Assembly (NCBI GenBank): GCA_017656385.1 | Contig: JACDNX010000009.1 | Coordinates: 1 to 64,000 of the forward strand | Direction of reading: 5' to 3' | Source of the DNA: Thermodesulfobacterium sp. | Lineage (GTDB): Bacteria; Desulfobacterota; Thermodesulfobacteria; Thermodesulfobacteriales; Thermodesulfobacteriaceae | DNA length: 64,000 nt | In this document: piece by piece, positions 41,050-61,061 of the stretch | How the letters are laid out: each line of letters opens with the position of its first letter | How positions within the stretch are numbered: the first letter of the stretch is position 1 | Program-made: the position numbers and the translations under genes | Notes under the pieces: generated by a model | Seen by the model: the letters and a program-made list of their open reading frames with translations, nothing else | What the model was told of the DNA's origin: nothing | The model's database searches: none

Positions 41050-41129
41050 AAAAGCTCACGGGGGAGTCTCCGGCTCCCCTCGTGCTGCTGCTGGATCAAA
41101 CGGTGCCGGGACACCATCTCCAGTCAGCA
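41050..41129 (-). ncRNA. Structured small RNA candidate, element A
   Basis: A GC-rich island in AT-rich intergenic DNA. On the minus strand, GCTG-A-CTGGA (from 41128) pairs with TCCAG-CAGC. It encloses hairpin 1, GGTG-TCCCGG-CACC, and the internal loop GAT/GTTTGA. Hairpin 2 is CACG-a-GGGGAG..CTCCCC-CGTG (41084-41057) with a CCGG-bearing loop and a CTTTT tail, plausibly a terminator. Loop 1 and loop 2 each contain CCGG and can kiss. The fold matches elements B and C. A promoter at 41138-41166 is positioned to start it. It lies about 210 nt upstream of aor on the same strand. Class unknown to me. Confidence 0.65.
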
Positions 41130-41137
41130 TCAATAAT

Positions 41138-41166
41138 ACCATAGTACTAAAATTAAATTCTGTCAA
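41138..41166 (-). promoter_or_regulatory. Sigma-70-like promoter of element A
   Basis: On the minus strand TTGACA (41166-41161), a 17-nt spacer, then TATGGT (41143-41138). Nine bases separate the -10 box from the GCTG that opens element A, the same geometry as in element C. Confidence 0.65.
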
Positions 41167-42820: not shown

Positions 42821-43558
42821 ATGAGATTAGCAATTACTTTTGCTTCTAAAAATGAAGTTATTTTACCTATCCATTATAATGAACTTTTGCAAGGATTAAT
42901 TTATCATCTTTTAGATAAAGCCCTTGCTGAAAAACTTCACAATGAAGGTTTTGTTTACAGAAAGAGAAAATTTAAACTTTTTACCTTTTCTCGAATTTTT
43001 GGAAAGTTTAAGAAAGAAGGAAATAAGTTTAAAATTTCTTCACCTTTTAAGTTGTTTATTTCTTCTCCTTATACTGAAATGCTTCAGAGTTTTACCTCTA
43101 ATCTTTTGAAAAAACCAGAAATAAGGCTTGATCTAAATAAAGTCTGGATTGAATCCATAGAAGTTCTTGCAACTCCGGAGATAAAAAAAGAAATTTTTAT
43201 ACGGATGCTTTCTCCTCTGACAATTTATAGCACTCTTTATAGCCCTGATGGTAAAAAGAAAACCTATTATTACAACCCAGGTGAAAAAGAATTTTCAATG
43301 CTTATCAAAGAAAATATTGTCAAAAAGTATAAAGCTTTCTACGAAAAAATTCCTCCTTCAGAGGAATTTTTTATAAAACCTATTAAGTTAGAGAACAAAA
43401 ATGAGAAAATAGTTATTTACAAGGATTTTGTGATAAAAGGGTGGATGGGAAAATTTAAGTTGAAAGGAGAGCCAGAACTTTTAAAACTTGCTTATGATGC
43501 AGGACTTGGTGCTAAAAATTCCCAAGGTTTTGGAATGTTTGAGATCATATATAAATAA
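42821..43558 (+). CDS. cas6: CRISPR pre-crRNA endoribonuclease Cas6
   Basis: A 245-residue Cas6, which cuts the precursor CRISPR RNA within the repeat. MRLAITFASKNEVILPIHYNELLQGLIYHLLD is the family start, and the C-terminal glycine-rich loop is GLGAKNSQGFGMFEI (near 230). A candidate catalytic His lies near residue 30. It lies on the far side of the array from cas2-cas1-cas4, separated from the array by two structured RNA elements. Confidence 0.88.
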   Translation: MRLAITFASKNEVILPIHYNELLQGLIYHLLDKALAEKLHNEGFVYRKRKFKLFTFSRIFGKFKKEGNKFKISSPFKLFISSPYTEMLQSFTSNLLKKPEIRLDLNKVWIESIEVLATPEIKKEIFIRMLSPLTIYSTLYSPDGKKKTYYYNPGEKEFSMLIKENIVKKYKAFYEKIPPSEEFFIKPIKLENKNEKIVIYKDFVIKGWMGKFKLKGEPELLKLAYDAGLGAKNSQGFGMFEIIYK

Positions 43559-43647
43559 ATTTTAAAGCTTTGACTAAATTGTAAATTTCTTATAAATAGG
43601 TTTTAAACTTATGAATTTTGTATTATATTTTATTTTAAAATTTCAAC

Positions 43648-43727
43648 TACTGGTGGCAGGGGATGGTGTCCCGGCACCGTTTAACCCTGTATCACCAGCA
43701 TGGGTAGGACCGGAGACCCTCCCATAA
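43648..43727 (+). ncRNA. Structured small RNA candidate, element B
   Basis: On the plus strand GGTG-g-CAGGG (43652-43661) pairs with CCCTG-tat-CACC (43685-43696), extended by CT/AG outside. It encloses hairpin 1, GGTG-TCCCGG-CACC (43665-43678), and internal loop GAT/GTTTAA. Hairpin 2 is ATGGG..CCCAT (43700-43725) with CCGG in its loop at 43710-43713. Both loops carry CCGG. The outer stem differs from A and C but keeps pairing. No TTGACA-N17-TAnnnT promoter is at the expected place; TTGACT lies farther upstream at 43570-43575. It may be a weakly expressed or decayed copy, convergent with element C. Confidence 0.5.
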
Positions 43728-43794
43728 CCCTTTCTTGTTCAAATAATTTCATGTATACTTCTATTAAAGTTATTAAAAAGCCTAAAATAAATGA

Positions 43795-43901
43795 TAAAAT
43801 GGGCACCTCCGAAGAGGCGCCCATCCCGTCTCGTGGAGAGCCTGGGCTCCACGAAGTTGCTGCGGAGTCAAGCGGTCCCCAGGAGACCTCCTCCGTCAGC
43901 A
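43795..43901 (-). ncRNA. Structured small RNA candidate, element C, with UUCG hairpin end
   Basis: On the minus strand GCTG-A-CGGAG (43900-43891) pairs with CTCCG-CAGC (43867-43859) around hairpin 1 GGTC-TCCTGGG-GACC and internal loop GA/GCTTGA. Hairpin 2 is a perfect 8-bp stem, TCGTGGAG/CTCCACGA (43831-43854), with loop CCCAGGCT. Loop 1 CCTGG and loop 2 CCAGG are complementary, whereas A and B use CCGG/CCGG. A third hairpin, GGGCGCCTC-TTCG-GAGGTGCCC (43822-43801), has a cUUCGg tetraloop and a G-U pair only on this strand, and ATTTTAT follows, like a terminator. A promoter lies at 43910-43938. Confidence 0.68.
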
Positions 43902-43909
43902 CAAATAAT

Positions 43910-43938
43910 AAATTAATACAAGAAACTCCTTCTGTCAA
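43910..43938 (-). promoter_or_regulatory. Sigma-70-like promoter of element C
   Basis: On the minus strand a perfect TTGACA (43938-43933), 17 nt, then TAATTT (43915-43910). Nine bases separate the -10 box from the GCTG that opens element C, identical to element A. The -10 box is a weak match. Confidence 0.6.
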
Positions 43939-44059
43939 GTTTAAAGGAGAAGGCTGGATTATTGTTCCTTCTGAAAAAGGTAAATTTAGAGTTGCTTTTG
44001 AAGATTCAGAATTAGAACGACCGGTTAAAGATGCTCTTTATTCAGATTGTAGAAATTAA
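43939..44059 (+). pseudogene. Short coding relic before the CRISPR array
   Basis: The plus-strand frame ending at TAA (44057-44059) reads KFKGEGWIIVPSEKGKFRV then AFEDSELERPVKDALYSDCRN, which looks like the C-terminus of a real protein by composition. Upstream the frame runs through the antisense of element C and has no convincing start. It may be the remains of a gene cut by the insertion of elements B and C or of the array. No family recognised. Confidence 0.3.
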
Positions 44060-44064
44060 AACCC

Positions 44065-45196
44065 ATTTCAATTCCTCATAGGTAGGCTTAGACACCATAA
44101 CAAGAGGGCTTTCAAGCTTGCTTCTTAACTTTCAATTCCTCATAGGTAGGCTTAGACGGTTTATTGAGGTGTTTTAAGTGGCTTACAAAAAACTTTCAAT
44201 TCCTCATAGGTAGGCTTAGACTTATAAACTTCAGGAAATAAAATTGAAGTTGTATCTTCTTTCAATTCCTCATAGGTAGGCTTAGACAAGAAATCCCCTT
44301 CACAACTTTTGTCATTACTGGATCTTTCAATTCCTCATAGGTAGGCTTAGACTTTTGTTTCTTTATCTCTCAAAATTACTCTAATAGGCTTTCAATTCCT
44401 CATAGGTAGGCTTAGACCATTTTTGTTTTCAGCCATATTACAATCTCCCTCTCAACTTTCAATTCCTCATAGGTAGGCTTAGACAATTGCAACTTCAGCT
44501 TTATCAAATGAAATAACAACCTTTCAATTCCTCATAGGTAGGCTTAGACAGTGGTCTTAAATCAAAATCAGATAATGTATAAGGCTTTCAATTCCTCATA
44601 GGTAGGCTTAGACTCGTGGAATTTCATTACCAAATTGACTGCATTTTGCCTTTCAATTCCTCATAGGTAGGCTTAGACGCTTTTTCCTTGTCAGGTTGCC
44701 TGTGGTAAACATAACTTTCAATTCCTCATAGGTAGGCTTAGACTCGTGGAATTTCATTACCAAATTGACTGCATTTTGCCTTTCAATTCCTCATAGGTAG
44801 GCTTAGACGCGTTGTAGGTTTTGATTATGATCATAATTTCATACTTTCAATTCCTCATAGGTAGGCTTAGACTACATTTTTAGAAAACTCAGGCTTGGAA
44901 CACTTAAACTTTCAATTCCTCATAGGTAGGCTTAGACATTATTCAGAGAAACTTTCTTCAATAAGAGGTTTACTTTCAATTCCTCATAGGTAGGCTTAGA
45001 CCCTAATCCTAATGATTTAATTTATACTTTCAAGAAACTTTCAATTCCTCATAGGTAGGCTTAGACAATGTATTAACTATTCATGCGTTGCCTCTCAAGG
45101 AACTTTCAATTCCTCATAGGTAGGCTTAGACAGTAACTTTTAAAATTTTTCGTGTTTAACCAAAAGTCTTTCAATTCCTCATAGGTAGGCTTAGAC
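44065..45196 (-). CRISPR. CRISPR array, 18 repeats of 29 nt and 17 spacers, type I-B
   Basis: The repeat on the plus strand starts CTTTCAATTCCTCATAGG and ends TAGGCTTAGAC; read as transcribed (minus strand) it ends in ATTGAAAG, the usual crRNA 5' handle. Repeats begin at 44065, 44129, 44193, 44259, 44324, 44389, 44456, 44521, 44585, 44650, 44715, 44780, 44844, 44909, 44973, 45038, 45103 and 45168. Spacers are 35-38 nt. All repeats are identical except the leftmost, whose first base is A instead of C, as expected for the old, leader-distal end. Spacers at 44614-44649 and 44744-44779 are identical. One spacer (44418-44455) reads, on the minus strand, like a ribosome binding site and gene start. 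Confidence 0.98.
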
Positions 45197-45363
45197 CGTA
45201 ATCAAAATATAGAATATACCTTAATTTCAAAAAATTTTAAACATTAATTTTGCGTCAAATTATAAGCATGGAATAAAAATTTACCAAACCGCTCAGATTT
45301 TTATTCAATTGTCAAAGAACGATGACTTTTTATCTTAATTTCGCTCCCATTTTACTAAATATT
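45197..45363 (-). promoter_or_regulatory. CRISPR leader with promoter
   Basis: The AT-rich stretch between the newest repeat and cas2. On the minus strand TTGGTA (45287-45282), a 17-nt spacer and a perfect TATAAT (45264-45259) form a good sigma-70 promoter that would start transcription about 55 nt before the first repeat. This agrees with the minus-strand direction deduced from the repeat and the degenerate repeat at the far end. Confidence 0.75.
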
Positions 45364-45648
45364 TTATAATACATTGCTATCAAAGTCAAAACTCTTTCTT
45401 GCTAAAATTATTCTTTCCCATTTTATAGTATCTGGTAATTTATAAATTATTACACTATCTCTGTCTTTATCTACTATTTCTAAAATTGCTCTTTCAAGTT
45501 TATAAAGCTGACCTTCTGTCAAATCCCCTTCAAATACTGATTTTTGCACATGATACAAATATCTTCTTGCTATCTTACGAACCTTATTCAACCTTTTTTG
45601 ATCTCTTGGTTCAATTGTTTCAATATCATAAATTAAAATTACTTTCAT
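45364..45648 (-). CDS. cas2: CRISPR adaptation protein Cas2
   Basis: A 94-residue ferredoxin-fold protein that bridges Cas1 dimers in spacer integration. VILIYDIETIEPRDQKRLNKVRKIARRYLYHVQKSVFEG is the typical start, with the conserved Asp in YDIE (near 8), and IYKLPD near 70. Only 3 nt after cas1. Confidence 0.95.
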   Translation of the reverse strand: MKVILIYDIETIEPRDQKRLNKVRKIARRYLYHVQKSVFEGDLTEGQLYKLERAILEIVDKDRDSVIIYKLPDTIKWERIILARKSFDFDSNVL

Positions 45649-45651
45649 CCT

Positions 45652-46617
45652 TTACCACCAAATTCTTAATCCTTTATATCTTTTTTCTCCTAAAAGATGT
45701 TTTATTAATTTATAAAGCTCAAGCCTAATTAATGTTTTATATCTTACCTTTCTTTTTAATTTTCTATGATAAATTGTAGATTCTAACAATTTATCGAAAT
45801 GATAAATAAATGTTTTTCTTCCTTTTTCAGTAAGATAAGCAAAATTTACTTCTTTTAAAAAATCAGAAAGCTTCAATATATTTTCGTTTATTAATCTAAA
45901 AATCAATTTATCTACCAGCAAAGGTTTAAAAATTTCTGAAATATCAAGAGCTAAAGAAAACCTTCTTTCAAATGGTTCATGTAAAAAACTTATTGCTGGA
46001 TTAAGTTGAGTATGATAAATTTCTTTTAAAATTGTTGTATAAAGCATAGAATTACCAAAAGAAATCAATGCATTTAAAGGATTTTCCGGAGGTCTAAAAG
46101 TTCTTTCACCAAACTCCCAATTTGTGATACTTTCAAAAGTAGAATAATAAATTCTCCGGGCCTTTGCTTCTATAAGCATTATCTCATTTATAGATTTAGC
46201 TTTCATTACTTCTTCTTCGCATTCTCTTAATGCTAAAATTTCTTTTTCATACTCTCTTTTCTCAAGAATTCTGTGAATATTATGAATTGCAGAAGCAATA
46301 ATTTCTTTAGCTAAATAAAGTCTTTGAGAATGATTTAAATAATGTTCAACTTGTTTTACTATTACTGTGCCCGAAATATTGATCTCTCGTGGATAAAAAC
46401 TACCAGTGTAATATCCATAATAATTGAAAAAATGAAGTAAAATACTATTCTGAGATAGAAAATTTATAAGCTTTGTATTAAGAGTGGTTTCTCCAAAAAG
46501 ATAAATCTGTTCTACTTGTGTAACAGGAATAAATCTTTTCCCTTCTGGGGTAGAAAAACACAGGGTATTTTCTTTTCTTTCAAGTTTTCCCGAAGAAAAG
46601 ATGTAAAAAGTTCTCAT
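45652..46617 (-). CDS. cas1: CRISPR integrase Cas1
   Basis: A 321-residue Cas1 (type I-B-like). The N-terminal beta domain (about 1-75) is followed by the helical catalytic domain. NALISFGNSMLYT (near 180) contains the family helix, AISFLHEPFERRFSLALDISEIFKPLLVDKLIF (near 205-237) holds the conserved His and acidic residues for metal binding. It lies between cas4 and cas2, both co-directional, so the adaptation module is complete. Confidence 0.96.
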   Translation of the reverse strand: MRTFYIFSSGKLERKENTLCFSTPEGKRFIPVTQVEQIYLFGETTLNTKLINFLSQNSILLHFFNYYGYYTGSFYPREINISGTVIVKQVEHYLNHSQRLYLAKEIIASAIHNIHRILEKREYEKEILALRECEEEVMKAKSINEIMLIEAKARRIYYSTFESITNWEFGERTFRPPENPLNALISFGNSMLYTTILKEIYHTQLNPAISFLHEPFERRFSLALDISEIFKPLLVDKLIFRLINENILKLSDFLKEVNFAYLTEKGRKTFIYHFDKLLESTIYHRKLKRKVRYKTLIRLELYKLIKHLLGEKRYKGLRIWW

Positions 46618-46637
46618 CTTAAATCTCCTGTAAAAAT

Positions 46638-47138
46638 TTAGCTATAGCAAAATTCGTAATAACTACATTTTTTGCAGTATTTTACTTTTATTGGAGGGGG
46701 TAAAGAAGATTCTAAAATTATACCTACATTTCTTTTAAAACCTTCAATTATTTCTTTATCTTTTTCAGTAAATTTAACTTCAATTTTTTTTAAAAGTTTG
46801 GGATAATGGATAATTCCTGAAGAGCAATTTATTCCCAATTCTTTTAATTTATATATATAAAATTTGACTTGCCATATATGAGCTGGTTCTAATTTTCTTG
46901 ACTTCTTTACTTCATGAACCACTATGCCATTTTTTGTTTTTATAAAATCTATTTTTACATCTCCAAGTTCTAATTCTTTATGTTTTTCTTTCTTAAAGGT
47001 TTCTTCGTTTATCAATTTACCAAGTTCAACATAATCAGAATATTTTTCAAAACTTATTTGATGAGAAAAAAGCCATAGTTTCCTTTTACACACTACATAA
47101 TAAGCTATCTGCGTCCCCGTAAAACTTTCTTTAAGCAT
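46638..47138 (-). CDS. cas4: CRISPR-associated exonuclease Cas4
   Basis: A 166-residue RecB-type nuclease that trims prespacers and selects PAMs. The iron-sulfur cysteines are VVCKRKLWLF (near 18) and KYCKKCSYYEFCYS (near 155-165). The nuclease core shows DVKIDFIK, HEVKKS and the QVKFYIYKL helix. It is the first gene of the cas4-cas1-cas2 operon. Confidence 0.93.
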   Translation of the reverse strand: MLKESFTGTQIAYYVVCKRKLWLFSHQISFEKYSDYVELGKLINEETFKKEKHKELELGDVKIDFIKTKNGIVVHEVKKSRKLEPAHIWQVKFYIYKLKELGINCSSGIIHYPKLLKKIEVKFTEKDKEIIEGFKRNVGIILESSLPPPIKVKYCKKCSYYEFCYS

Positions 47139-47620
47139 TAAAAATTTAATAAAAAATTAAAATTTTTATTAAATTTAAATCAAAAAATTGTTTATTAATT
47201 TTTTTCGGATTAAATTAAATTTATTTAAACTTTACTAAAAATTGCAAAAATGGTATATTTTTTAAAAAGAAGAAAAAATCAAAATTAATAGACACGGAAT
47301 CTAATCTTATGATATTGCTGAAAATTTTGATAAAAAGAAAAAAGGTTAATTAAGTATGTAGAAAAGTTAAAAAAATGGATAAAAAGGATTGAATATCGAT
47401 TATCTAGTAAATTTTATTTCCTATACCACAAAAAGAGTTTGAAAAAGTTAAAAAAAGACTAAGGCTGGTTAAGGATGTATTGAAGAAGATAAAAATTTTT
47501 AAACTGGGTTGACTTTCGTTGCAGAGGGAAGTAGGGAGCTTTGAATAAGATACAAGGCAGGTTTGATGAAAAAAATTCAATGAGTATTTTAGATGCTGAA
47601 GGGTGTTGAAGGGTCGCGGA
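47139..47620. other. AT-rich intergenic region between divergent cas4 and cas8, with coding debris
   Basis: No intact gene. On the plus strand one frame reads FPIPQKEFEKVKKRLRLV then KDVLKKIKIFKLG to a stop at about 47510, and another near 47545-47605 reads RFDEKNSMSILDAEG. Both look like fragments of decayed coding sequence. A TTGACT lies at about 47511 but no good -10 follows at 17 nt. No GC-rich structured element is present. Confidence 0.4.
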
Positions 47621-48982
47621 ATGGCAGAAATAAGCACAATTAGAAGTTTATTAGAAAAAAGAATATGTTGGGTCGGGAACGTCTCTCAAAGAGGAAAAGC
47701 GAGGAAAATCCCGATAGATTTTGATGGTTTATTGGGTGCTGTACTACAGGGTATAATAGATCCACCTAATAAAATAAACTTACCTAAAAAATTGAAGCAA
47801 AAATGTAATCAAGTAAAAACCGTAGATGATTGGATAAATATCATATTAGAATACCTAATGCAAACAAAGGATGTAAGCTCATCCCATTTTCCGACTATTT
47901 TACAAAAAAGTGAAGCTCCAAATTACCATTTTTCTGACTATAGGCTTACCATAGATGATTCATCAAAAGTGAACATGCTTTATTGGCTTTTGAAGTTTTA
48001 TTATGTTGAACTATCCCGTGAAAGACGAAAAGTAGTTGTAGGTGTTAGAACCAAAGATGAAATCGTTGAAAATATTATTCGTGATTTTAGGAGAGTTGGA
48101 AGTCGATTTGATTTTGAGTTAAATCGGGGGAGGGTCGATAAGACGATTTTAGACAAGGAAATTACATTTTATATACCTCCTAGCCCCTCATCCACATACT
48201 TCACTCTACTTTCACTTCTTTGTGCTATACTACAGACCTTTGAGTACATTCACGCAGATAGTAGAATTTCTTTAAATTTAGATTTTGAGGCGCTGGTTTT
48301 GAGTAATACAGGAGGAAAGAAGTGGTCCACAGTATACCATCCAATTATAAACCTCACGAGAATTTACAATATATTCTTTAGACCAGAAGAACTAACCGAA
48401 AATGGAAAGTCAAAGTTTATTGTGTTTTTGGAGTCTTTATTACCACCAAGGCTTACAAATCAAAATATTATTGACTCATATTATACACAACTATCTTCTC
48501 TGGCCTTTTCTATCCTCTTGGAAGGTTATTTGAACGTTCATAAACTTTCTCAGGTTATAAGCGAGAAAATCTCACTTGAATTAAGATCAAAAAGAGAAAA
48601 TCAAAATTATAAATTAGGAAATATCTACTACTTGGAGCACGTTCATACAAAATTTTTTGGAGGTGATAGTATGAGCGAAGATTTTGGGAAGTTAAGAAAA
48701 CAGATGATAGCCATTGCATTCAATATAAGCGAGCTTGCTAAAAAAGGAGATACACAACGTAGTTTATTAAAAAGAATAATACTTGACTTAAAAAATGAAG
48801 AAACACCTGTGACATTTGTAGAAAAACTTGTTTCGTACTTACCAAGGCTTGAAAGAGAAGGAATTAAGATAACATTACCACAGGAATTGATTTTATTACC
48901 AGTTAGAGAATTTTTTATAACTAAAAATGAATTTATTGTAATTTTATGGAATAAATACATGGGAGGAGGTGATATTACATGA
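47621..48982 (+). CDS. cas8: Type I-B Cascade large subunit, Cas8-like (by position)
   Basis: A 453-residue protein from the ATG at 47621, with AAGGG upstream; a GTG at 47603 would add 6 residues. I do not recognise a family motif. Its place before cas7-cas5-cas3 and its size fit the Cas8b/Cst1 large subunit that reads the PAM. The CxxC zinc pairs typical of many Cst1/Cas8b proteins are absent: the two cysteines near the start (KRICWVG, KQKCNQ) are isolated. Alternatives are a divergent Cas8a/b. Its ATGA overlap with cas7 shows joint translation. Codon use is less AT-biased than in cas1, cas2, cas4 and cas6. Confidence 0.65.
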   Translation: MAEISTIRSLLEKRICWVGNVSQRGKARKIPIDFDGLLGAVLQGIIDPPNKINLPKKLKQKCNQVKTVDDWINIILEYLMQTKDVSSSHFPTILQKSEAPNYHFSDYRLTIDDSSKVNMLYWLLKFYYVELSRERRKVVVGVRTKDEIVENIIRDFRRVGSRFDFELNRGRVDKTILDKEITFYIPPSPSSTYFTLLSLLCAILQTFEYIHADSRISLNLDFEALVLSNTGGKKWSTVYHPIINLTRIYNIFFRPEELTENGKSKFIVFLESLLPPRLTNQNIIDSYYTQLSSLAFSILLEGYLNVHKLSQVISEKISLELRSKRENQNYKLGNIYYLEHVHTKFFGGDSMSEDFGKLRKQMIAIAFNISELAKKGDTQRSLLKRIILDLKNEETPVTFVEKLVSYLPRLEREGIKITLPQELILLPVREFFITKNEFIVILWNKYMGGGDIT

Positions 48983-49866
48983 GAAAAATAGTAATTGGTC
49001 TCCTAACGAGGGTCTCAGGAAATGTAAATGCAAATGAGATAGAAGGAGATAGAATCAGAATAAAAAAGCTTGTTTCAATAGATGGAGAGACTTATCCTTT
49101 TGTTTCTGCAAGAGCTGTTAAAAGAGGAATTAGAGAGAAATTTGTAGAGTGGGGCTTTGAAGTAGATCAATTTAGGATTGGTGAAGGTGAAAAATTGGCA
49201 GATAGTGGAGACCCTATAAAATACGTTGACAATGATTTGTTTGGTTATTTGTACATAAAAGGCAACAGACAAAGACCAAGAGTGTCTCCTATTTCAATGT
49301 CACCTATAATTGCTGTTAAGCATACGCCGATAGAAATTGACTTTGGGGGCAGATTTCCAAAAGAGATCGGCGAAACAAACCCAACACCATTTGAAATTGA
49401 GGTTGCTGATTTCATTGGTCTAATGAAAGTTGTAATTACAGAAAGGTGCGGGATATTCACCGAAAGTGAAAAAACTGATCAAATCAAGAAGTGGGATGAA
49501 TATGTCAAGGAAAACAAAGTGCAGAAGGAAACGAGAAACAAGGCATTATATGTGCTTGAAGACGAAGAACGGATTAAAAGAGTTACAGCTTTCTTAGAAA
49601 TTCTTTTTAACGAGGGTTGGGCCTATCCAAGGAGAGCAAATTACTTTGCAATGGCAGAGCATTTTTCGGCAATAGTATACTGTGGAGAAAAGCTGTATCC
49701 TGTTTGGAAGAACTTTGACGAGAACTACCAGTTTACTCAACCAAATATTTTAATTGAAGACCGTGAGAAGCTGTTTGGACCGTATAATCTAAAGATCGCC
49801 TCTGTCTTGAAAGAAGATATCGAGAAAATGGCAACTTGGCTGGTGACTGGACAATGGAAAAAATAG
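48979..49866 (+). CDS. cas7: Type I-B Cascade backbone protein Cas7 (Cst2/DevR family)
   Basis: A 295-residue RAMP protein that forms the crRNA-coating filament. LLTRVSGNVNANEIEGDRIRIKKLVSIDGETYPFVSARAVKRGIRE is the typical DevR/Cst2 start, and FGGRFPKEIGETNPTPFEIEVADFIGLMKVVITERCG the mid-region. YPRRANYFAMAEHFSAIVYC is a conserved helix near 218. The end overlaps cas5 by 13 nt. Confidence 0.9.
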   Translation: MRKIVIGLLTRVSGNVNANEIEGDRIRIKKLVSIDGETYPFVSARAVKRGIREKFVEWGFEVDQFRIGEGEKLADSGDPIKYVDNDLFGYLYIKGNRQRPRVSPISMSPIIAVKHTPIEIDFGGRFPKEIGETNPTPFEIEVADFIGLMKVVITERCGIFTESEKTDQIKKWDEYVKENKVQKETRNKALYVLEDEERIKRVTAFLEILFNEGWAYPRRANYFAMAEHFSAIVYCGEKLYPVWKNFDENYQFTQPNILIEDREKLFGPYNLKIASVLKEDIEKMATWLVTGQWKK

Positions 49867-50516
49867 GATTAACTGTAGACGTTTTATTCGATTTGGCCCA
49901 CTTTAGGGTTCATACAACAATGAAGGGTAGGTCGTCTTATCTACTTCCACTGCCTACAACGATAATTGGTTTCTTTTTCTCAATTCTTGGAAAAAGTCGG
50001 GAATATTATATTGAAGAAAGAAAGAATTTTAAAGCTGGTGCCCAAATTATTGATATTGGCGGTGTTTGCCGTGAGAACGCACAGTTATTAAAACTCAAAA
50101 CTGGGAGGGAAGATAGAACAACGGAGGAGCTAATGTTACTTCTTAGACCCAAATATAAATTTGCAATCTGGGGCAAGCAAGAGACAATTTACTTGCTACA
50201 TAAAAAGCTCAACAATTTTGAGTTCGATTTCGTACCCTATGCTGGAATAAGCGATTTTATATTCTTTGATATAGAAAATCCAAGAATTCATGAACATTTT
50301 GAAGAGACGTACACCGTAAAAGACTCATATGCTCCAAGAAATATTGTAGATTCAGTAGAGCTATCGGAAAAGAGTATAGTCTATAATCTTCCCTACACAT
50401 ACTCGGGTAAGCCAGAATTTGTTGTAATGGGGATCAATGTTGGTTTTAAATTAAAAAATAAGATTATATCGATTGATGGTGTTCCACTCTATGACTGTTT
50501 TCTGGTGACAAGATGA
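49854..50516 (+). CDS. cas5: Type I-B Cascade protein Cas5
   Basis: A 220-residue RAMP protein that caps the 5' handle of the crRNA. VDVLFDLAHFRVHTTMKGRSSYLLPLPTTIIGFFFSILG matches the Cas5t/Cas5b start (hydrophobic strand, then LPxPTTIxG). I use the ATG at 49854; a TTG at 49836 is possible. The C-terminus ends GVPLYDCFLVTR. It overlaps cas7 and cas3 by 13 and 4 nt. Confidence 0.88.
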   Translation: MEKIGLTVDVLFDLAHFRVHTTMKGRSSYLLPLPTTIIGFFFSILGKSREYYIEERKNFKAGAQIIDIGGVCRENAQLLKLKTGREDRTTEELMLLLRPKYKFAIWGKQETIYLLHKKLNNFEFDFVPYAGISDFIFFDIENPRIHEHFEETYTVKDSYAPRNIVDSVELSEKSIVYNLPYTYSGKPEFVVMGINVGFKLKNKIISIDGVPLYDCFLVTR

Positions 50517-52723
50517 AATTGGAGTTAATTATTGAGGAACTTGGATTGGAATCACTATCTAAAACATCTCACAAGAATGGTAGTTTAGAGAAGCCCTTAA
50601 ACAAACATATTGAAGAAGTAAGAAGTATTTCAAAAGTATTAGCAAGAAAACATGGATTAACTGAATCTTTAGACATTCTTGATGTGCTTGCTGAGTGGCA
50701 TGATATTGGAAAACTAAATCCTGCATGGTGTATTGACGAAGACCAAAAACCGCCACACTCAGCTCTTTCTGCTTATCTTTTTCTAAAATACTCAGAGAAG
50801 GAAGATCCAAGGTTATTTTATTTTATTCTTAAGCATCACTCAAGTTTGGTGCAGGTTCCCCTTAATATTCCCTCTATTTGCAAAAATGTGGTGGGAAAAA
50901 TAAAGTACAAAATCGACCAGAAAGAAGCTTTGAATCTTATTTTCAAGGAACTCAGAAAATTTAAGCTATCAGTAGAGGATATAAAAAGCAACGTCGATCT
51001 TGTTGACTTATTTGGAACTTTTAAGACTGCAGACATACTGTCAGCCATGTTTGAAGAAGAGAGCAGAATTTCTAAGCAAAATATTGATCTTAAGGTTGAA
51101 TTACTCAAAGAGCGTCTTCGAGATTACGTTAGAAGTAAGAATTTAAAGTTCGACGAAAATAAGTGGAAAATTTTCACAGAGATGGCAAGGACAGACAGAG
51201 ACATTCTCTTTTTAGCCCCTACTGGCTGGGGAAAGACATTTGCGGCATTGACTGTTGCAGTAAGCAAAAAACCGAGTCACATAATCTATGTGTTACCGAC
51301 CATAACATCTATTAGAAAAATGAGACAATCACTCCAGAAATTACTTAGTGGTGTCGGAGTCGAGGAAAATTACTATTTCGCTGATACAAAAAAATTAAAG
51401 AGGCTCGGGATACCCGAAGAGACTGATATAGATTTGGATTTGTTTATTTCTAGATCTTTCATAAGTCCTGTGACTATTACAACCTTGGACCAATTACTTC
51501 TAAGTTTTTTGCATGTCGGAAAGTACTTCTTGAAAAGGTACCACTTTAGGAATTCAGTTTTTATTTTTGATGAGTTCCACCTTTACCCCATTAATGGACT
51601 TTACCTTCTTCTTTATTTCTTTAAAAAGTTTAATGAAAAATTCAAATATAATATGAGATCAGTTTTTATGTCCGCCACTATACATCCAGTGTTTAGATCA
51701 CTGATAAACCAATTTATTGCTCCCAGAGAATTCGAATTTCTTCAAGAGTACAAGAAAAAGAGGAGATACCTATATTCTCTTGAAGAGAACGACATAACAA
51801 GTGATGAGGTGCTCAAACAAATTATAGAAAAGTCCAAACTTGGAAATGTTTTAGTTATATGTAACACTGTTGAAAAAGCAATCAGAGTCTATTTACTCCT
51901 AAAACACAACTACAAAATGAAGAATAATATGCTCCTACTTCACTCCCGCTACACATACCATGATAGACGAAAGAAAGAAGAACAATTAGAGAAGTTATCT
52001 ACTAAATCCAGAGAGTTTATATTTATATCAACACAAGTATCTGAAGTCAGTCTTGACATCTCTTTTGACTATTTATTCACAGAACTTGCACCGATACCAT
52101 CTCTGATTCAGCGATTTGGCAGAGTTAACAGATATTCGGATTTCATTGATAACATTAATGTAAATATAACATATCCAGAAGAAATTAACAAAACGCGGTT
52201 TTACCCTTATGATGAAAAGGAAATAAAATTTGCCACCAGTACTCTATCTGAACTGGAGTACAAAATTAAAAATGAATTTGAGCTAATTGAACGATTAAAA
52301 GATGCTCCGATGTTAGTAGATAATGCTGAATTAAATGAAATAGAAAAATACTTGAGAAAATGGGAAGATGACACCAGATTCTTTTTCTCAATCGATTTGA
52401 AAGATGAAGAACTAAATAGACTTTTGAAGTTTAGAGACACGAACACAGCATTGATCATTCCTGGTTGCTTTACGAGTGACGTTTTAGAAATTCTTTTGAG
52501 CGATAGAAGATATAAATCACAATTAGTTAAGGAATATTTTGTTCCTGTGCCTATTTGGTGGCTTTTTGAAAAATCAGGGTACATTTACAAGGAAAAGAAT
52601 TTGTTGTTTTTGTCAAGTCAAAGATTTCTTTATTCTCAGGATGTTGGATATTTCGACTCAGAAAAGTTAAAAAAATTCGTAGATTTAATAGATATCTGTG
52701 TTAAATCTAACAATATAGCTTAA
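50513..52723 (+). CDS. cas3: CRISPR helicase-nuclease Cas3
   Basis: A 736-residue DNA-degrading effector. The N-terminal HD nuclease has LAEWHDIGKLNPAW (near 62) plus further His residues in LKHHSSLV (near 108). The SF2 helicase shows Walker A LAPTGWGKTFAAL (near 238), the DEAD-box equivalent FDEFHLYP (near 352), MSATIHP (motif III) and the C-terminal STQVSEVSLDISFD and QRFGRVNRYS (motif VI). Both activities look intact. It ends the cas8-cas7-cas5-cas3 operon. Confidence 0.94.
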   Translation: MKLELIIEELGLESLSKTSHKNGSLEKPLNKHIEEVRSISKVLARKHGLTESLDILDVLAEWHDIGKLNPAWCIDEDQKPPHSALSAYLFLKYSEKEDPRLFYFILKHHSSLVQVPLNIPSICKNVVGKIKYKIDQKEALNLIFKELRKFKLSVEDIKSNVDLVDLFGTFKTADILSAMFEEESRISKQNIDLKVELLKERLRDYVRSKNLKFDENKWKIFTEMARTDRDILFLAPTGWGKTFAALTVAVSKKPSHIIYVLPTITSIRKMRQSLQKLLSGVGVEENYYFADTKKLKRLGIPEETDIDLDLFISRSFISPVTITTLDQLLLSFLHVGKYFLKRYHFRNSVFIFDEFHLYPINGLYLLLYFFKKFNEKFKYNMRSVFMSATIHPVFRSLINQFIAPREFEFLQEYKKKRRYLYSLEENDITSDEVLKQIIEKSKLGNVLVICNTVEKAIRVYLLLKHNYKMKNNMLLLHSRYTYHDRRKKEEQLEKLSTKSREFIFISTQVSEVSLDISFDYLFTELAPIPSLIQRFGRVNRYSDFIDNINVNITYPEEINKTRFYPYDEKEIKFATSTLSELEYKIKNEFELIERLKDAPMLVDNAELNEIEKYLRKWEDDTRFFFSIDLKDEELNRLLKFRDTNTALIIPGCFTSDVLEILLSDRRYKSQLVKEYFVPVPIWWLFEKSGYIYKEKNLLFLSSQRFLYSQDVGYFDSEKLKKFVDLIDICVKSNNIA

Positions 52724-60614: not shown

Positions 60615-61061
60615 TTAAGATAATTTTAAAATTTCTTTAATTTTTGAAACAACCTTTGGGATTGCTTCTTTCACTTTAGGACTGCATTCTTTATCAAGGG
60701 TGTCCACATCTTCTACTTCTACACCTATAATTTTAATTTTCTTAGGCATTTCTTCTGGGAAAACCTTATATCCTACTCTAATTACTTCAAAAATATTTAT
60801 ACTATGAGTTCCACTTGCATAAACATTTTTCCAGCTTTCCGCAGGATCAATTTCTATAATAGTGCCAGGTTCAGTTCCTATTTTTATTCCATCTACTATT
60901 ATAGCTATATCATAATTTAATATAGCATCTATTACTTTAAGATCTGTATTTAGAAAACAAACAGTATCTACCAGTCCTTTTAAATTCTCTATAACTTTAA
61001 ATCCCACACCATCGTCTCTAAAATTTGGATTACCTATTCCAACTACTATAGCTCTTTTCAT
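60615..61061 (-). CDS. Hydrogenase maturation protease
   Basis: A 148-residue HyaD/HycI/FrhD-like peptidase that clips the C-terminus of the [NiFe]-hydrogenase large subunit after nickel insertion. AIVVGIGNPNFRDDGVGFKVIENL (with the nickel-binding Asp) and IAIIVDGIKIGTEPGTIIEID, with a conserved Asp and a His in ASGTHSINIFEV, match the family. It lies downstream of mvhA, its likely substrate, separated by a terminator hairpin, and has no clear Shine-Dalgarno. Confidence 0.9.
   Translation of the reverse strand: MKRAIVVGIGNPNFRDDGVGFKVIENLKGLVDTVCFLNTDLKVIDAILNYDIAIIVDGIKIGTEPGTIIEIDPAESWKNVYASGTHSINIFEVIRVGYKVFPEEMPKKIKIIGVEVEDVDTLDKECSPKVKEAIPKVVSKIKEILKLS

Follow-up and report, generated by a model that had tools for sequence, protein, structure and literature searches.

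The locus raises the question of whether a GC-rich stretch between cas6 and a CRISPR array of a Thermodesulfobacterium sp. (here, element C) is a gene for a small RNA and, if so, whether that RNA belongs to the host, to its CRISPR system or to a mobile element. The window (the whole 64,000-nt stretch of DNA that was analyzed) has an overall GC content of 32%, and its islands above 61% GC are two tRNAs and three related elements, A, B and C, with no others; the GC content of element C peaks at 68%. On the minus strand of element C, a -35 box and a -10-like box are followed by three hairpins (43901-43796): (i) P1, a kinked compound hairpin (43858-43901) with the loop CCUGGG at 43883-43878, (ii) P2 (43830-43855), the loop of which (CCCAGG, 43846-43841) is complementary to that of P1, and (iii) a third hairpin (43796-43827) with a UUCG loop and the shape of an intrinsic terminator. 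The minus-strand fold has a predicted energy of -60.0 kcal/mol (z -4.5), which is equaled by none of 200 shuffled sequences and compares to -50.3 kcal/mol for the plus strand. The predicted transcribed unit extends on the minus strand from about 43903 to 43793 and is expected to yield an RNA of ~105-112 nt. A first-pass annotation of the same DNA had proposed a minus-strand RNA of about 105 nt, and the fold and the strand signs found across the family support it. Element C is very probably a minus-strand gene for a putative folded RNA of ~110 nt.

The elements that resemble C form a small family. Alignment and a covariance model identify A (41053-41131, minus strand; P1 and P2) and B (43649-43730, plus strand) as paralogues of C, and the three align as homologues. 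Two further copies (AUK151-a and AUK151-b) are present in Thermodesulfobacterium sp. AUK151 (genome G012), and a tandem pair (S143_67-1 and S143_67-2) is present in Thermodesulfobacteriaceae bacterium S143_67 (genome G025), which is of another genus. The tandem pair was found at an E value of 8e-6 with a covariance model built without it, from A, B, C and the two AUK151 copies. The family comprises seven good copies in three genomes, with additional copies that are decayed or truncated. No further copy was found among 41 genomes of the order by covariance model search or among 395 genomes of the phylum by a retrained model with strict filters, and the family is absent from most of the genus. 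This census is a lower bound, as the DNA search missed a copy in genome G002 that local BLAST detected. Matches to a C-type model in two other genomes are an ordinary terminator adjoining a flagellin-like gene (G010), which was rejected, and a weak match (G029). Pattern searches of IMG/VR returned no family member, matches among GTDB contigs beyond AUK151 and S143_67 were chance matches to the P1 tip, and BLAST against phages and plasmids returned nothing credible. With seven good copies, several decayed or truncated ones and absence from most of the genus, selection on function is unproven.

The promoter of element C consists of a perfect TTGACA (43938-43933, minus strand) and, at the exact 17-nt spacing that had been claimed, a weak TAATTT (43915-43910). 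The latter matches TATAAT at three of six positions (the first T, the A and the last T), which accounts for its absence from the output of a promoter scan. The offset of this promoter from P1 had been described as equal in C and A at 9 nt; the equality is borne out, with 8 nt from the -10 box to P1 in C and likewise in A, where TTGACA-17-TATGGT occupies 41138-41166 of the minus strand. The -35 box is conserved at the same distance in AUK151-a, and the S143_67 pair is preceded, at an equal offset, by a promoter-like sequence of its own. When scored against shuffled sequences, the promoters on the RNA strand have probabilities of 0.0005 (A), 0.007 (AUK151-a) and 0.017 (C), with 0 of 2000 shuffles for S143_67-1; those of A, C and AUK151-a are not independent, as they share a common upstream piece, and that of S143_67-1 is independent. 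By the same scoring, no family copy has promoter-like sequence on the opposite strand, and neither B nor S143_67-2 has a convincing one of its own on the RNA strand.

The third hairpin of element C bears the C(UUCG)G tetraloop noted earlier on the minus strand, here found on a 14-pair stem followed by a TTTTA tail, and its single non-Watson-Crick pair is indeed G-U on the minus strand and a mismatch on the plus strand. It is the sole terminator-like site that a terminator scan finds in the 42.5-45.5 kb interval; shuffles of this interval average 1.9 such sites, so the presence of one is unremarkable and it is the 14-pair stem that is surprising. The truncated C-type copy of G002, a third species, keeps P2 and a terminator-shaped third hairpin in which, relative to C, the G-U pair is replaced by A-U and a C-G pair by U-A, a compensatory change. 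The terminator is clear in C and not clear in A and B. Across the family, a count over helices chosen by hand gives three non-Watson-Crick stem pairs, each of them G-U on the RNA strand. The promoter, tetraloop and G-U pair that the first-pass annotation treated as three agreeing signs are all present on the minus strand, but each is weaker than claimed: taken by itself, the promoter of C scores at a shuffle probability of 0.017, and a single G-U pair is little evidence.

The pattern of change among copies provides further evidence for a folded RNA. In P1, an asymmetric internal loop separates P1a and P1b (about 10 pairs) from P1c, and P2 is a hairpin of 8-10 pairs. In the family alignment, both partners have changed in 17 of the 25 pairs, and 88.7% of cells are paired, compared to 35-51% once the partners are slid by 1-3 columns, values that lean towards structure because a related model was used to fit the alignment. 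The loops of P1 and P2 are complementary in every good member (seven of seven), with the pairs CCGG/CCGG in A, B and AUK151-a, CCUGGG/CCCAGG in C, CCCGG/CCGGG in AUK151-b and S143_67-1, and CUCGG/CCGAG in S143_67-2. The total complementarity is reached by none of 20,000 shuffles and, when the second loop is permuted among members, by two of 120 arrangements, the identity included as one. Comparison of the copies shows that the loops of P1 and P2 covary in their predicted pairing, which could be intramolecular or could join two molecules; the comparison also shows the strand bias, the helices, and the shape of the putative promoter and terminator. This pattern bears on the reading in which the plus strand of the element C region (43700-44059) encodes a protein and the fold arises incidentally. 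A frame of 119 codons is indeed open on the plus strand, and one like it runs through an AUK151 copy, which is why coding was considered. It was dropped, and is barely credible, because A and B contain in-frame stops, AUK151 has a frameshift, the S143_67 copies have no conserved frame, the 119-codon product has no family match, and the changes preserve base pairs rather than codons.

The surroundings of element C suggest other roles. A type I-B CRISPR-Cas locus spans 42821-52723 of the window (cas6, array, cas2, cas1, cas4, cas8b, cas7, cas5 and cas3), and the gap that separates cas6 from the distal end of the array, empty in a relative, holds B, C and a fragment of a phage gene. The fragment (43944-44059, plus strand), which hosts the element C unit, derives from a gene for a large protein; its DNA is 82% identical to that of a 1,427-codon frame of genome G011, and the similarity ends at 43944, a few bases beyond the -35 box of C. 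The array adjoining element C (44065-45196, minus strand) has 18 repeats, and two of its spacers (44605-44649 and 44735-44779, beginning TCGTGGAATTTCATTACCAAATTGACTGC) are nearly identical, with one repeat-spacer unit between them. In AUK151, the same phage-gene fragment together with an A-like copy adjoins CRISPR repeats. An RNA dedicated to the type I-B system (guide-like, tracr-like or CreTA-like) would fit these positions but is very improbable: no repeat match lies outside the array (three mismatches allowed), no 15-base repeat core lies near the elements (two mismatches allowed), and the array spacers match neither the elements nor the phage fragment. Moreover, the members on the S143_67 contig and on contig 145 of AUK151 have no cas genes nearby, and relatives with the same locus lack the elements.

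The position of the elements after genes invites a further explanation, namely that B and C are not genes in their own right but form the structured ends, or the terminators, of convergent transcripts (that of cas6 on the plus strand and that of the array on the minus strand). B lies 90 nt 3' of cas6, C follows the array and A follows a sulfite-reductase-like gene, each on the same strand as the gene or array before it, and C ends in a terminator. Against this, a promoter separates each of A, C and S143_67-1 from the gene upstream of it; the array of G010 directly follows cas6 without B or C; and the truncated copy of G002, which also follows that sulfite-reductase-like gene, points the opposite way. 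Such a role in 3'-end formation is improbable. In AUK151, neither an element nor the array adjoins cas6.

The copies occur at unrelated sites, as judged from their contexts in this genome, AUK151, S143_67 and G002. The promoter of the A locus (TTGACA..TATGGT) runs directly into ilvC in G011, is followed by a decayed element and then ilvC in AUK151, and is followed by element A here. This promoter, which lies after a sulfite-reductase-like gene, is nearly unchanged in the three genomes (G011, contig C175 of AUK151 and 41138-41166 of the window), with flanks that diverge. A may have been inserted 3' of an existing promoter, or G011 may have lost the RNA and kept the promoter. A gene that is intact in the window (60615-61061, minus strand) is broken in AUK151 by another copy, which lacks the 5' side of P1a. 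The S143_67 pair has a tRNA-Ile on one side and a phage-type integrase on the other, and a primase and a Doc-like gene are also present; the RNA genes lie at the opposite end from the integrase and on the other strand. About 1.5 kb beyond this integrase is ilvC (contig C87, 1501-2499), which also adjoins the A-locus element of AUK151; its presence at both sites may be chance. A short metagenome contig of AUK151 (C172) has palindromic repeats at 571-623, 1284-1321, 1663-1718, 2181-2233 and 2879-2929 that end in GTTAGAT-like core sites, like the attC sites of integrons, in varying orientation; they lie between short gene cassettes and are interleaved with CRISPR repeats at ~481, 548 and 1321.

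Dispersal of this kind would also be expected of a mobile palindromic DNA repeat (similar to MITE, REP or Rickettsia palindromic elements), the folding of which serves DNA movement or is a by-product and any transcript of which is incidental. Copies are found in a phage-gene fragment, after cas6, inside an AUK151 gene, in the gap between a promoter and ilvC, and in an integrative element; some are decayed, A and AUK151-a have 207 bp in common including AT-rich flanks, and the opposite-strand frame stays open through some copies. Flank comparison, in which no clean two-flank empty site was available, revealed no common terminal inverted repeats or target duplications, and no transposase is nearby. 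In addition, the copy number is low (three in this genome), the promoter is at a fixed offset in two genera, C-type copies have a terminator, and the loop-loop covariation is what a folded RNA should show and a terminal palindrome has no need of. A purely DNA-level repeat is, on balance, unlikely.

The reading favored here (probability of roughly 0.6) is that element C is a minus-strand small RNA gene of a rare, dispersed Thermodesulfobacteriaceae family that is borne by mobile elements and has a loop-loop fold. According to this reading, a sigma-70-type promoter would direct synthesis of an RNA of ~110 nt that ends at the intrinsic terminator. The internal loop of P1 presumably bends this hairpin so that the terminal loops of P1 and P2 can meet and pair, which would close the RNA into a compact module. 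The family would travel with mobile elements, which the module may serve as a protein-binding or regulatory RNA, and host copies would decay once stranded. The differing contexts and the decayed copies point to an RNA of a mobile element rather than a host or CRISPR RNA. Several observations count against the favored reading: the promoter of A is that of ilvC in G011 and may not be the RNA's own, the same covariation would arise from DNA hairpins, the -10 box of C is weak, and B and S143_67-2 lack a clear promoter. A broader proposal, put forward tentatively and more doubted than held, is that the family is a new loop-loop RNA class of the integrative elements or phages of thermophiles, regulatory or protein-scaffolding in role, with C-type and A-type subtypes that are in tandem in S143_67 and with stranded copies beside the host CRISPR locus.

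Among catalogued RNAs, the family has no match in Rfam 15 at the gathering cut-off and nothing credible at E values up to 10; it is an uncatalogued structured RNA, new relative to this release. A Thermodesulfobacteria genome was among those covered by a published survey of GC-rich intergenic regions (PMC8632094), and the family may be an unnamed entry in the supplementary motif lists of that survey. The fixed-offset promoter, compact GC-rich fold and U-tailed terminator hairpin are shared with small RNA genes that have a sigma-70 promoter and an intrinsic terminator, from which the family differs in its two adjacent loop-paired hairpins, its dispersed, multicopy and rare occurrence, and its lack of an Rfam 15 homologue. 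Two adjacent hairpins with mutually paired loops are also a feature of the Guanidine-II (mini-ykkC) riboswitch and other loop-loop RNAs. The likeness is one of general description only; the loop sequences differ, P1 is long and kinked, and there is no downstream same-strand gene to control. The immunity RNAs of satellites and phages (P4 CI and P1/P7 C4) are small RNAs of mobile elements and, in an equally general comparison, resemble the S143_67 members as small two-hairpin RNAs on an element with an integrase and a primase. Unlike these, the family has no Rfam match, and its RNA genes lie at the far end from the integrase, in the opposite orientation. A search of the S143_67 contig for perfect antisense runs found none longer than 13 nt and no target beyond the level of short matches. 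With REP, MITE and Rickettsia palindromic elements, the family shares a dispersed, structured and GC-rich nature and occasional placement inside reading frames, but its copy number is low, it has a promoter and terminator, and no common ends were found.

The finding adds to the known structured RNAs a family that is missing from Rfam, with covariation of both the helices and the loop-loop contact across two genera. The matched changes in both loops among the copies provide a ready mutational test of that contact. More generally, the family suggests that thermophiles harbor mobile elements with their own folded RNAs.
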